From a virus: a DNA stretch of 23,227 bases. The stretch covers positions 1 through 23,227 of the IMG/VR virus record IMGVR_UViG_3300037264_000391. One strand, given 5' to 3'. A program made the position numbers and the translations under genes. This document shows, one piece after another, positions 5,409 to 23,171 of the stretch. The notes under the pieces are model-generated. The model did not search any database. It saw only the letters and a program-made list of their open reading frames with translations, and was not told the DNA's origin. Numbering within the stretch: position 1 is the first letter of the stretch; every line of letters starts with the position of its first letter.

Positions 5409-6179
5409 TCAGTCCTCTAGTGTAGGCGCCGCAGAACGACGCTGCTGGAGGGTCGGGGCATCCGACCTACGCTGGCCAAGAACCGGGTCAACTAGCCTGT
5501 TTGCCTGGAGAGCCGGGCTAACACTGCGGTTCTGTGAAAGAACCGGGTCAGCGTGTCGGCGGGACATAAGACGCGGAATGACGTGCCGGCGCTGGAGAAA
5601 GCGCGACAGAATACTACCACGAGCCAGGATCGCAGACAAGCCCGTAAATACATAGGCTCCGACCGCATGGGCAAACGAAATAGCTTTGTAGGCCGCCTGT
5701 CCGGTGAGGGTATAAGCGCCTACCGCACTGGCCCGGCTAATCTTCTGGAAAGTTGCAATCCCGGTGAAAGCATAAGTCCCCACTGCACTCGCCCGAGATA
5801 TGTGCTGGAAAGCCGCCATCCCCGTGAGAGCGTAAGTGCCGAGGGCCGCGACAATTGTATAGCCTTTCCGAAGAATAGCGTCCTGTCCGGTGAGGGTATA
5901 AGCGCCTACCGCACTGGCCCGGCTAATCTTCTGGAGGGCCGCAAGCCCGGTCAGAGCATACGTCCCGAGTGTCGCGACGATCGTATAACCTTTCCGAAGG
6001 GTCGCATCCTGCCCGGTCAAAGCATAAGTGCCCAAGGCAGCAGTTTTCGTAATTTTCTGGAGGGCCGCAAGCCCGGTCAAAGCATACGTTCCCAACTCAG
6101 CCGCGAGTGTGTATGCAACTGTTCCGCCCGGAAGTTCTGAAAAAGCTGCTTCAGAAAAAGCCGTGTGACCGAAAGACAT
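5409..6179 (-). CDS. repeat protein: eight G-x-Y-x-L/F-T-G repeats and a 10-residue C-terminal repeat
   Basis: A 256-aa protein of unknown function made almost wholly of repeats. Residues about 25-190 hold eight units of 20-22 residues, each with a core such as LGTYALTG or VGAYTLTG followed by LAALQKISRASA or QDAILRKGYTIVAA; the two linker types partly alternate. I recall GSYALTG-type repeats in phage and prophage tail-region proteins, but know of no proven function. The last ~60 residues form a second, basic repeat of ten residues (L-x-x-R-R-x-x-x-P-x, about six copies, ending APTLED). GGAG lies 6 bases before the start. Position between fibre-type genes and tail tubular A suggests a virion or adhesion role. 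The DNA repeats make copy-number change by recombination likely. Confidence 0.75.
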   Translation of the reverse strand: MSFGHTAFSEAAFSELPGGTVAYTLAAELGTYALTGLAALQKITKTAALGTYALTGQDATLRKGYTIVATLGTYALTGLAALQKISRASAVGAYTLTGQDAILRKGYTIVAALGTYALTGMAAFQHISRASAVGTYAFTGIATFQKISRASAVGAYTLTGQAAYKAISFAHAVGAYVFTGLSAILARGSILSRFLQRRHVIPRLMSRRHADPVLSQNRSVSPALQANRLVDPVLGQRRSDAPTLQQRRSAAPTLED

Positions 6180-14231: not shown

Positions 14232-14260
14232 ATCATAGGGGATAATTGGCTAGGGGTCAA
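14232..14260 (-). promoter_or_regulatory. sigma70-like promoter for portal/head operon
   Basis: Minus strand: -35 TTGACC (14260-14255), exactly 17-base spacer, -10 TATGAT (14237-14232). Expected start near 14225, 20 bases before the 62-aa gene. The -35 hexamer contains the TGA stop of the collagen-like gene. An inverted repeat GCTAGG/CCTAGC (14249-14254 and 14261-14266) brackets the -35 and could be an operator or a weak 3'-end hairpin for the upstream gene. Confidence 0.72.
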
Positions 14261-15216
14261 CCTAGCAGTTTGAGAACACCATAGCTGCCAGCGCGGACAT
14301 TCGGCCCTGTCCCTACCGCCTCGCGCTTCACCCGAGCAATCAATGTGCCCGCATTGGCCCCATTCCGCAGAATGCCACGGATGACAAACATTCTCCGGGT
14401 AGCCCCATTGCTCGCGGTACTCGCTGTGTTCGCATCATAAGCCACCGCACCACGGAAAGCCTCCACCGTCACACTCGTCCAGTATTGTTGCTCATAAATT
14501 ATGGCTGTAGGAGACGCAGGGCCATTGACTGCAACGTCGATACCCGTAGTCACGGCGTCCGCATCGCAAATCAAGAAGAACTCGAAAGCATAAGTCAAAT
14601 TCGCGAGGACCGCCAAGCCAAGACCAGAAACATCCGCAAACGCTGTACCGATTGCAGTCTGGTCGCTCGCCTTTAGCGCGACGGCAGTAAACCCGAGCCC
14701 ATTAACGCCAGGGATACCTTGCGAACCTTGGGCGCCAGGATTACCCTGCGGACCCGGATTTCCTTGAGCGCCTGGGATACCTTGCGGACCTTGAGTGCCC
14801 GGAGCCCCATCATTTCCAGGGGCACCCTGCGGACCTTGAGCGCCCGGAGTACCTGAAGCACCATCGTTCCCAGGATTACCCTGCGGACCTTGAGCGCCCG
14901 GAGCACCATCATTCCCCGCAGCACCAGCAACGCCGGGGATACCTTGCGGGCCGGTAGCTCCATCGACGCCAGGATTACCCTGCGGACCCGGATTTCCTTG
15001 AGTGCCTGGGATACCTTGCGGACCCTGAGTGCCTGGAGCACTCTGTGGACCCGGATCACCTTGTGGACCCGCGGGACCCGGAGCCCCATCATTTCCAGGA
15101 GCGCCCTGCGGACCTTGAGCGCCCGGAGTACCGCTCTCACCGGTGGACAAAGCCTGACGCAAATATGGGGTATGCCTCAAAGTCAAAGCCATCCGAGCTA
15201 TTTCATGGTGGTTCAT
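14257..15216 (-). CDS. collagen-like tail fibre/virion protein
   Basis: A 319-aa protein. Residues 1-25 are an N-terminal attachment segment (MNHHEIARMALTLRHTPYLR). Residues about 26-174 are roughly 50 Gly-X-Y triplets (e.g. GAPGNDGAPGPAGPQGDPG), i.e. a collagen triple helix, with one break where Ser59 replaces Gly (GPQ-SAP-GTQ). Residues 175-319 form a beta-rich C-terminal domain probably needed for trimer registration and binding (YAFEFFLICDADAVTTGIDV, MFVIRGILRNGANAGTLIAR). Such proteins are trimeric phage fibres or appendages. Unusually, it lies between the lysis genes and the portal operon, not with the other tail genes. The start overlaps the previous stop by 3 bases. Confidence 0.85.
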   Translation of the reverse strand: MNHHEIARMALTLRHTPYLRQALSTGESGTPGAQGPQGAPGNDGAPGPAGPQGDPGPQSAPGTQGPQGIPGTQGNPGPQGNPGVDGATGPQGIPGVAGAAGNDGAPGAQGPQGNPGNDGASGTPGAQGPQGAPGNDGAPGTQGPQGIPGAQGNPGPQGNPGAQGSQGIPGVNGLGFTAVALKASDQTAIGTAFADVSGLGLAVLANLTYAFEFFLICDADAVTTGIDVAVNGPASPTAIIYEQQYWTSVTVEAFRGAVAYDANTASTASNGATRRMFVIRGILRNGANAGTLIARVKREAVGTGPNVRAGSYGVLKLLG

Positions 15217-20281: not shown

Positions 20282-20312
20282 CTAGCGCGCGGGCATTGTG
20301 CTCGCGCGCTAG
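20282..20312 (+). repeat. intergenic hairpin 1 (14-bp stem)
   Basis: CTAGCGCGCGGGCA (20282-20295) pairs with TGCTCGCGCGCTAG (20299-20312) with one G-U pair and a 3-base loop. No T-run follows, so it is not a standard terminator. It may be an RNase III/processing or mRNA-protection element between the 58-aa and 28-aa genes. Confidence 0.7.
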
Positions 20313-21020: not shown

Positions 21021-21053
21021 ATAGGCACTAGGGCGCATTGCTCTAGTGCCTAT
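21021..21053 (+). repeat. intergenic hairpin 3 (14-bp stem)
   Basis: ATAGGCACTAGGGC (21021-21034) pairs with GCTCTAGTGCCTAT (21040-21053), one G-U pair, loop GCATT. Ten bases after the stop of the 58-aa gene. Its top (GGGC..ATTG..GCT with CTAG) resembles hairpin 1, suggesting a shared origin or recognition. No T-run. Confidence 0.7.
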
Positions 21054-21378: not shown

Positions 21379-21389
21379 AGTGCCCGCTA

Positions 21390-21426
21390 CCCTGGGCGCG
21401 CGTGCCTCGTGCGAACGCGCCCAGGG
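21390..21426 (+). repeat. intergenic hairpin 4 (11-bp stem), copy A of a duplicated element
   Basis: CCCTGGGCGCG (21390-21400) pairs with CGCGCCCAGGG (21416-21426), 15-base loop. It is followed by a segment (about 21416-21470, including CAGGGCCTTCCCTGC and AGACCGATTGTT) that recurs at about 22007-22065. Confidence 0.7.
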
Positions 21427-21470
21427 CCTTCCCTGCAAGACCGATTGTTTCGCCTACCATGAACAAACCT
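21416..21470 (+). repeat. duplicated intergenic element, copy A
   Basis: Nearly the same sequence as 22007-22061: CGCGCC, then GGGCCTTCCCTGC, AGACCGATTGTT, CGC, TACC and TGAAC are shared in order with a few substitutions. It is noncoding and ends before the ribosome site of the 139-aa gene. It may be a regulatory or recombination element. Confidence 0.65.
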
Positions 21471-21489
21471 TGAACCTGGAGGAAAGACG

Positions 21490-21909
21490 ATGAATAAGAA
21501 GCTCGCAGACAAAATCCTGTCCTATACCCATCGCACACAATCTCAGCTAGGATGCATCCTAGTTGCAGTGCTTGGGCAAAATGATCCGAACATAGTCCCG
21601 CGTTTTGAAGGTAAGGCGCATGTCACAAGTGATGGGTATGTGATGTGCTCTTTCATTACGCGCGACTATCAATATAAAATGAGCGCCTTTGTGGGATCAT
21701 TGGCAGACTTGGAATTGAATGTGCGCGGGATTGCAAACCATGCCAAGCTTAACCCGAAAGAGCGTTTGCAATTTTATGGCGCCGTGCAAGCTTGGCTTGG
21801 GCGCGCAATCGTCGAAAAGCCCGTGCCGCCCTATTGGCAAGCGGTGAAAGACGGGCTTGTGCCTAGTGACGTTCCGAATTATTCTAAGGCACGGCGCAAT
21901 GTACGCTAA
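21490..21909 (+). CDS. 139-aa early protein, unknown function
   Basis: GGAGG lies 7 bases before the ATG. Start MNKKLADKILSYTHRTQSQL, a hydrophobic beta region (GCILVAVLGQNDPNIVPRF), KAHVTSDGYVMCSFITRDYQ, a helical part (LNPKERLQFYGAVQAWLGRA) and the basic end YSKARRNVR. It is soluble; no catalytic motif seen. The last four codons overlap the truncated HhH-like copy that starts at 21899. Confidence 0.65.
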   Translation: MNKKLADKILSYTHRTQSQLGCILVAVLGQNDPNIVPRFEGKAHVTSDGYVMCSFITRDYQYKMSAFVGSLADLELNVRGIANHAKLNPKERLQFYGAVQAWLGRAIVEKPVPPYWQAVKDGLVPSDVPNYSKARRNVR

Positions 21910-22015
21910 CCACGTCCCCACAATCAATGCGGCAATGCGCGCTTGCCCTAAGACTTTCGCGCGTGGCGTCATGTTCGCAATCCTAAGCGCGCGAGCATCT
22001 GGCCAACGCGCCTAG
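21899..22015 (+). pseudogene. truncated copy of the HhH gene start (38 codons)
   Basis: Codons 1-32 (MYANHVPTINAAMRACPKTF, then [12 protein letters not shown]) match the start of the helix-hairpin-helix gene at 22536: 30 of 32 residues and 83 of 96 bases identical by my count. Nine of the eleven changed codons are synonymous. After codon 32 the reading goes ASGQRA and stops at 22013-22015, inside hairpin 5. The ATG overlaps the end of the previous gene; no ribosome site of its own is obvious. Either a remnant of a full gene or a selected short peptide. Confidence 0.6.
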
Positions 22016-22016
22016 G
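21982..22016 (+). repeat. intergenic hairpin 5, related to hairpin 4
   Basis: CCTAAGCGCG (21982-21991) pairs with CGCGCCTAGG (22007-22016) with one A-C mismatch; 15-base loop, as in hairpin 4. The left arm lies in the truncated HhH copy; the right arm starts the duplicated intergenic element. Confidence 0.55.
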
Positions 22017-22065
22017 GCCTTCCCTGCGAGACCGATTGTTGCGCGTACCGTGAACGAAACCCGAA
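22007..22065 (+). repeat. duplicated intergenic element, copy B
   Basis: Counterpart of 21416-21470, with GGGCCTTCCCTGC, AGACCGATTGTT and TGAAC conserved. It stands before the 79-aa gene just as copy A stands before the 139-aa gene, so the two genes may share control, or the unit moved by duplication. Confidence 0.65.
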
Positions 22066-22082
22066 ACCCTGGGAGAACAACA

Positions 22083-22322
22083 ATGAAAAGCCCGTTAGAC
22101 CTATTCACTGCTTGCAGCATCGCAGAAGGCTTCTGCGGTGGCGAGAACGCGAGCGAGCAAGAGACGATTGAGGCATGGCAGTATCTAATTGACACGGGCG
22201 CCGCCTGGACACTGCAAGGCTGGTATGGGCGAACTGCCGCGCATTTAATCGAGCAAGGCATTTGCACGCGCCGTGTCAAAGGCTCAGACTTGCGCCTAAC
22301 GCAAGAGCAAGGGGCGCGCTAA
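22083..22322 (+). CDS. conserved small phage protein (LQG.YGR motif), unknown function
   Basis: A 79-aa protein. The ATG at 22083 has GGGAG 7-8 bases upstream; longer in-frame readings cross the duplicated intergenic element. [20 protein letters not shown], then [20 protein letters not shown] followed by [20 protein letters not shown]. The 'e.lidtG.aw.LQG.YGR.A..LIe.G.C' core is found in a common family of small tailed-phage proteins (DUF7417-type), usually in early regions and of unknown role. Its stop and the next start overlap as TAATG. Confidence 0.75.
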
Positions 22323-22546
22323 TGCTATACGCTCGGCACGATAGCTACATGCTAGGCTCAGATTATACCGTCATGGCGCCCGACTTGGAGACCGTGCGCG
22401 GTGTTTGCAATCGAATAGTGCGCGGCAAATGGCCGGCGGGGCACTGGCGGATTTATGACTGCCATCCCGCCGACTGGTACAAAGTGACCGGGCATTTTCT
22501 AGTTGGCAAATGCCACAAGCGAAAGGCACGTGACAATGTATCTTAA
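22322..22546 (+). CDS. 74-aa early protein, unknown function
   Basis: The start at 22322 overlaps the previous TAA and has AAGGGG 8 bases upstream. [60 protein letters not shown], and a basic end VGKCHKRKARDNVS. Three cysteines and three histidines; a metal site is possible, but no spacing stands out. The stop lies 8 bases inside the HhH gene. No family recognised. Confidence 0.62.
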   Translation: MLYARHDSYMLGSDYTVMAPDLETVRGVCNRIVRGKWPAGHWRIYDCHPADWYKVTGHFLVGKCHKRKARDNVS

Positions 22547-23171
22547 CCACGTTCCTACAATCAACGCGGCCATGCGCGAATGCCCTAAAACGTTCGCGCG
22601 TGGTGTCATGTTCGCAATCCTAAGCGCGCGGGTTCAATTCCCGCGCGTGCCTATCCAAATGAAGGAACTGGACCGCATGGGCGCCCGTGCCGCGTGCCTA
22701 TGGGGATGGAAGCGCGGCGCCTTTGACTATGTGACGGAACATCGCGACACGCTCTGGCACGAGACGTGCGCCGCCCGCGATAGCGAGGAGGCAATCTTAA
22801 TCCTTTGCCGCATTCCAGGCATGGGTATAGTCAAGGCGGCATTTGTCCTGCAATTTCTTGGCCATGACATTGCTTGCCTCGATACCCGAAACATTATGCG
22901 GGAAGGCTTAGACCCCCGCGCCTACCGATCGGACGGGCCGGCGTGTAAAGCCCGTCCGGCGTTCGCTCGCAAGGCCCGGCGCTATGTCACCCAAACGCAA
23001 GGCCGCGCGCAAGAACTATGGGATGCTTGGTGCGGGGACGTTGCCGGCGTCTATGGGATGCAAGCGGCGCAAATCTCAGCCATGCACCTTGCTATTGTGC
23101 CGGCGCGGCAACGCCACTTGACAAGCCCGCTAGTTCCGTTTATCGGCTTATCTGAGCCGATACCATTCTAA
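22536..23171 (+). CDS. helix-hairpin-helix protein of the DNA glycosylase/HhH-GPD fold (putative)
   Basis: A 211-aa protein. IPGMGIVKAAF (93-103) is a helix-hairpin-helix, and LGHDIACLDTRNI (108-120) fits the strand and Asp (Asp116) of the HhH-GPD superfamily (compare VDTHV in endonuclease III). A lysine (Lys100) lies one residue off the catalytic position of bifunctional glycosylases, so it could be a monofunctional enzyme, or only a DNA-binding relative. There is no C-terminal iron-sulfur cluster motif. I chose the ATG at 22536 because the truncated copy at 21899 starts there too; an upstream ATG at 22503 is possible. The substrate is unknown; repair or handling of modified bases are options. 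Confidence 0.6.
   Translation: MYLNHVPTINAAMRECPKTFARGVMFAILSARVQFPRVPIQMKELDRMGARAACLWGWKRGAFDYVTEHRDTLWHETCAARDSEEAILILCRIPGMGIVKAAFVLQFLGHDIACLDTRNIMREGLDPRAYRSDGPACKARPAFARKARRYVTQTQGRAQELWDAWCGDVAGVYGMQAAQISAMHLAIVPARQRHLTSPLVPFIGLSEPIPF

Follow-up and report, generated by a model that had tools for sequence, protein, structure and literature searches.

A short open reading frame (ORF) near the end of a 23,227-nucleotide stretch of viral DNA from the IMG/VR collection (hereafter, the window) is a mosaic of two sequences, both of which are present a second time in the same stretch. Its 5' part is an allele of a downstream gene that encodes a full-length HhH protein, and its 3' end, including the stop codon, belongs to a repeated intergenic hairpin unit (Table 1). 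This ORF is probably a harmless recombination scar that was left, most simply, by one crossover between two related phages.

Table 1. Features of the locus that contains the short ORF (positions in the window)
Feature	Positions	Strand	Remarks
Intergenic hairpin-leader unit, first copy (D2A)	21385..21489	+	ends at start codon of 21490 gene; perfect hairpin 21390-21426
139-aa gene, no function assigned	21490..21909	+	last codons KARRNVR overlap short ORF start
Duplicated HhH 5' segment	21886..21993	+	86% to 22523-22630
Chimaeric 38-codon ORF	21899..22015	+	codons 1-32, HhH-gene allele; codons 33-38 and TAG stop, intergenic hairpin unit
Junction zone	21976..21993	+	identical to HhH 22613-22630; 14/18 to intergenic unit at 21385-21402
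Intergenic hairpin-leader unit, second copy (D2B)	21976..22082	+	ends at start codon of 22083 gene; hairpin 21981-22018
79-aa DUF7417 protein (PF24192)	22083..22322	+	E 4.6e-11
74-aa gene, no function assigned	22322..22546	+	last codons KARDNVS overlap HhH start
Full-length 211-aa HhH protein, 8-oxoguanine-DNA-glycosylase-like predicted fold	22536..23171	+	AlphaFold2 pLDDT 93.2; Foldseek to Tm1821, MjOgg

Two repeats make up the short ORF

A preliminary description of this DNA had reported that the first 32 codons of the HhH gene recur upstream with 13 base changes and two amino acid changes, and direct comparison of the two copies confirms these counts: 10 of the 13 differences are at third positions, and the residue differences are A3/L3 and A15/E15. 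The match is not confined to these codons; the aligned segment (108 nt, 21886-21993 versus 22523-22630) consists of the last codons of the preceding gene, an AAGG ribosome-binding-like stretch, the start codon and codons 1-32. Within the match, the 12-13 nt immediately 5' of the start of the short ORF comprise the final codons of the preceding gene as well as AAGGCACG, the likely site of ribosome binding. The short ORF has the same start signals as the full HhH gene, namely, the AAGG stretch and a start that overlaps the stop of the preceding gene, and the two preceding genes end in matching codons (KARRNVR in the 21490 gene versus KARDNVS in the 22322 gene). When the genome record is compared with itself, this HhH 5' match (E 1.4e-32) is unique, apart from the repeat of the intergenic unit.

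That second repeat was overlooked in the preliminary description. The intergenic unit at 21385-21474 recurs as the hairpin of the short copy plus all the DNA that follows, with 80% identity over 90 nt (21976-22065 versus 21385-21474). The first copy of the unit is located after the 21091 gene and opens with a hairpin that has a 12-bp stem (21390-21426), followed by GGCCTTCCCTGCRAGACCGATTGTT. The short ORF is, in other words, a partial copy of an intact gene that ends abruptly against unrelated DNA, as expected of a recombination scar or a truncated pseudogene.

The seam

Inside the short ORF, the two repeats overlap by 18 nt (21976-21993). Across this zone, the short copy agrees with the HhH gene at 18 of 18 positions, and the first intergenic unit (unit A) agrees with the HhH gene at 14 of 18. 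A scan of the whole 23-kb window with this stretch reached a score of 14/18 only at 21385, 21976 and 22613; because no sites other than the two units and the HhH gene attain it, chance agreement at the seam is unlikely. The joint contains seven exact bases (GCGCGCG) plus CCT, and a patch common to both parental sequences lies at the joint, as in recombination scars. A joint this short is below the usual requirement of homologous recombination.

The preliminary description also noted that the match ends at a hairpin in both copies and proposed recombination at that point. Both hairpins are indeed present, at 22624-22648 in the HhH gene and at 21981-22018 in the short copy, and the proposal gains support from the identification of the partner sequence, which is the hairpin's 5' arm in the repeated intergenic unit. 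The hairpin of the HhH gene (GGCGCGCG...CGCGTGCC) is also found in the closer relatives L057 and L058 (L numbers denote related loci), in which the GC-rich stretch is likewise present because of the codons for ARVQFPRV. We considered and rejected the idea that the HhH hairpin sequence GCGCGGGTTCAATTCCCGCGC represents a tRNA T-arm or an attP site: ARAGORN predicted no tRNA and Rfam returned nothing, and the resemblance to a T-arm is a codon coincidence, closer relatives encoding VQF.RV at this place with similar DNA. Strong GC-rich hairpins without U runs are located between many of the early plus-strand genes of the window (20282-20312, 21021-21053, 21390-21426 and 21981-22018), and the case described here suggests GC-rich hairpins between early genes as crossover points. 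Similar stems, of 23-24 bp, are present in L140 (4014-4064) and L143 (5004-5054).

Artefactual joining of two strain variants from one metagenome during assembly is an explanation to which we assign hardly any weight. Two observations are compatible with a wrong join: the IMG/VR record, at 23,227 bases, probably represents a fragment, and at the joint the HhH copies have 26 identical bases in common. However, the exact overlap between the HhH gene and the hairpin unit, only about 7 bases, is too short for a k-mer join, and pairing the other way at the 26-base repeat would be expected to yield a nonsensical small circle.

The position of the stop codon bears on another alternative, in which the short ORF is a cis-regulatory leader: its translation up to the TAG would melt the hairpin at 21981-22018, so that transcription or translation proceeds into the genes from 22083 to the HhH gene. 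In unit A, the hairpin follows the stop of the preceding gene; in the short ORF, by contrast, the TAG is part of the hairpin's 3' arm. At position 22013, unit B has T and unit A has C; the T pairs with the HhH-derived 5' arm, which the base of unit A would not do, and creates the TAG stop. Later selection is one conceivable reason for this T, which is, however, a single change and may be ancestral. Moreover, the hairpin lacks a U tract and received no terminator score: a test for intrinsic terminators, that is, a GC-rich stem followed by a U run, found no terminator-like site at 21390-21430 or 21981-22025, where the stems lack the U run. An Rfam search of the hairpin found no family, and the two copies of the unit are too few for covariation. 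A regulatory leader of this kind appears very improbable.

Divergence between the two copies

The residue changes in codons 1-32 are significantly fewer than randomly expected. Neutral simulation of 20,000 copies, each with 13 changes, gave a mean of 8.7 changed residues and a probability of about 5e-5 for two or fewer. The preliminary description took this pattern to imply protein-level selection on the short copy or on an ancestral full copy. The second part of that statement is supported, and the first is not demonstrated: both changed residues (3 and 15) occupy positions that are variable in the HhH family, so that the pattern resembles divergence between alleles that were both full-length, and as many as about six of the 13 changes may post-date the truncation and be unselected without conflict with the data. 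A recent loss of constraint is compatible with the pattern because the binomial probability of at most two nonsynonymous changes is 0.098 with six unselected changes and falls to 0.044 with seven. The best reading is that the synonymous bias built up while both alleles were full-length, and selection on the peptide, which may also have acted, is not needed to explain it. More generally, an excess of synonymous changes in a gene fragment can be a legacy of full-length ancestors and must not be taken as selection on the fragment.

The two pairs of repeats have diverged to a broadly similar extent: the HhH parts differ at 10 of 32 third positions and 6 of 16 fourfold sites, and the non-coding units at 14 of 72 positions. 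Such similarity is what allelic pairs would show if both came from one and the same couple of lineages.

The same bias (P about 5e-5) can be read in favour of a small protein kept by selection, such as a decoy or inhibitor consisting of the two N-terminal HhH helices, as can the start signals, which are those of the full gene (the AAGG stretch and the start overlapping the preceding stop), and the lack of residue change at the conserved positions of the family. Nevertheless, descent from full-length alleles fully explains the bias, the last six residues are a translated hairpin, the short form is found in no relative (see below), and the two helices belong to a confidently predicted globular fold rather than to a separate domain. 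We regard a maintained peptide as improbable. A combined scheme, in which translation of the TAG-in-hairpin ORF controls expression from the DUF7417 gene to the HhH gene and, additionally, the two-helix product interferes with the full protein, seems highly improbable.

The short form is restricted to this genome among the relatives searched

The HhH family was gathered from IMG/VR and phage records, many of which are fragments. Besides the locus in the window, about 138 HhH loci contain one full-length gene each (a few genes run off a contig end), and a second or shortened HhH copy was found in none of them. In 15 closer relatives, with 40-57% protein identity, searches of the entire record with the family profile and with the 38-aa peptide returned a single match per record, in the full gene. 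The checks in relatives that the preliminary description had proposed were for a full-length second gene at this place and for the same 38-codon form. Both came back empty across the approximately 138 loci and, for the 15 closer relatives, the entire records, and the suggested decoy or regulatory peptide, which would lack most of the predicted fold, thus finds no support in the relatives. The short form is not conserved, the closest relative having 57% protein identity, as expected of a scar and not of a small protein or decoy.

The surroundings of the HhH gene are variable. The gene directly 5' of it differs among relatives, with few pairs alike; the order of a 21091 homologue followed by the HhH gene is kept in L004, L140 and L143, and in L140 and L143 a strong hairpin is located immediately 3' of the 21091 homologue. 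Distant relatives of the 21490 gene are present near the HhH gene in L138 and L057 among the fetched loci; a separate scan with the 21490 gene found no relative, and none of the loci searched has this gene directly before a full HhH gene. Near relatives at the DNA level were not found in phage collections by sequence, by the hairpin-unit pattern or by a shared 27-nt pattern, and the HhH gene is absent from 46 contigs that were identified as relatives by their terminase. Bacterial genomes yielded no relative of the HhH gene, so no prophage source is seen.

Several other genes in the vicinity of the HhH gene in relatives deserve mention. An ORF directly 5' of the HhH gene in the phage contig L058 (5236-5895) resembles, by eye, an IS1595-type transposase, with a zinc-ribbon start. 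Pentapeptide-repeat genes flank the HhH gene in L057 (4126-4773 and 6646-7425), L059 (6566-7276) and L140 (4616-5170), and the two copies in L057 have a common start, MKILQLGTGKVLWEGADL.

The full-length HhH protein

The 211-aa HhH protein was modelled with AlphaFold2 at high confidence (pTM 0.90; pLDDT in Table 1), and in the model the first two helices are made up of residues 1-32. Because the 32 residues retained in the short ORF are two helices of a confidently predicted glycosylase-like fold, a folded decoy or any separate folded role of the 38-aa peptide is unlikely, as far as the model can tell. The nearest solved structures in a Foldseek search are Ogg2 8-oxoguanine glycosylases (probability 0.98-1.00, E 0.04-0.2, TM-score about 0.5), and profile matches to Ogg2 are weak (best E 0.0099 with one profile and 0.052 with another). 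The phage protein may resemble the Ogg2-type glycosylases of the HhH-GPD superfamily (Tm1821, MjOgg) in its predicted fold, contains an HhH motif (IPGMGIVKAAF) and has an aspartate in line with that of IIDRH; sequence similarity to them is only weak, the TM-score is about 0.5, and the lysine conserved in the phage family is one position later. The aspartate in question, Asp116, is invariant in the phage family, as is Lys100, which is one column off a lysine that itself differs between Ogg entries; altogether, the invariant residues are K100, D116, N119, W162, W165, C166, S181 and H184. Pfam and PHROGs gave no assignment at a useful score for the family, and the best matches in a library of viral structures are phage proteins without names. 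Given the predicted fold, the protein is possibly a DNA glycosylase or a DNA-modification enzyme. Full-length homologues are encoded by Roseobacter phage CRP-9, Paracoccus phage ParKuw1, Microcystis phage Mwe-JY26 and DSS3_VP1/PM1, with 29-34% identity over ~80% of the length; unlike the window, the fetched stretches of these phages contain single full-length HhH copies and no short paralogue.

Origin of the short ORF

The preferred scenario would start from two parent phages with the same order of elements, namely, a hairpin-leader unit, one or more variable genes and the HhH gene. The first parent would have carried the 21490 gene and an HhH allele, and the second the present HhH gene together with the 22083 and 22322 genes. 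A single illegitimate crossover would then have joined codons 27-32 of the HhH gene of the first parent to the 5' arm of the hairpin of the second, within the 18-nt patch of partial identity that is rich in GCGCGCG. The outcome would be a genome with both sets of variable genes in tandem, the first HhH allele cut after 32 codons and the downstream full HhH gene retained. The short frame may still be translated, by coupling to the 21490 gene, because the start signals of the gene remain, and no function of the fragment would be required. A single crossover is the simplest way to account at once for the two diverged units, the two diverged HhH 5' ends, the tandem arrangement of unrelated gene sets and the KARRNVR/KARDNVS pair.

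Phage mosaics have been found to arise mainly via homology-driven, divergence-tolerant recombination, illegitimate recombination events being probably much rarer (PMC3945230). The first of these findings is in keeping with the proposed origin; the reported rarity of illegitimate events, together with the very short patch, counts against the crossover, as does the lack, among the loci searched, of a relative with the 21490 gene directly before a full HhH gene. The locus resembles phage mosaic junctions with gene-fragment scars (modular evolution; relaxed homologous recombination, PMC3945230): unrelated stretches abut abruptly where a short patch is partly identical, the seam retains part of a gene and the flanking genes are variable. 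What sets it apart is the joint, which connects the interior of a coding gene with an intergenic hairpin, and the full copy of the gene nearby, so that both parental alleles can be read in one genome.

The same anatomy could also result from duplication within one phage, whereby tandem HhH copies diverged under selection and one of them lost codons 33-211 by a deletion from codon 32 to the downstream hairpin unit. A tandem duplication followed by deletion would give identical DNA, and this sequence alone cannot separate it from the crossover: the 18-nt patch would be common to both ends of the deletion, and the synonymous bias is accounted for as well. However, this course of events needs two steps plus a second copy of the leader unit, and two HhH genes occur in 0 of the ~138 related loci; we consider it rather unlikely. 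With a crossover between two phages as the probable origin, both parental alleles and the precise point at which the mosaic was joined are preserved in this locus, which in the wider context of phage biology is a neat but ordinary example of mosaicism.

Elsewhere in the window, two of the late genes, both on the minus strand, encode repetitive proteins: a collagen-like protein with Gly-X-Y repeats (14257-15216) and a protein with repeated units of the type LGTYALTGLAALQKISRASAVGAYTLTGQDAIL (5409-6179).
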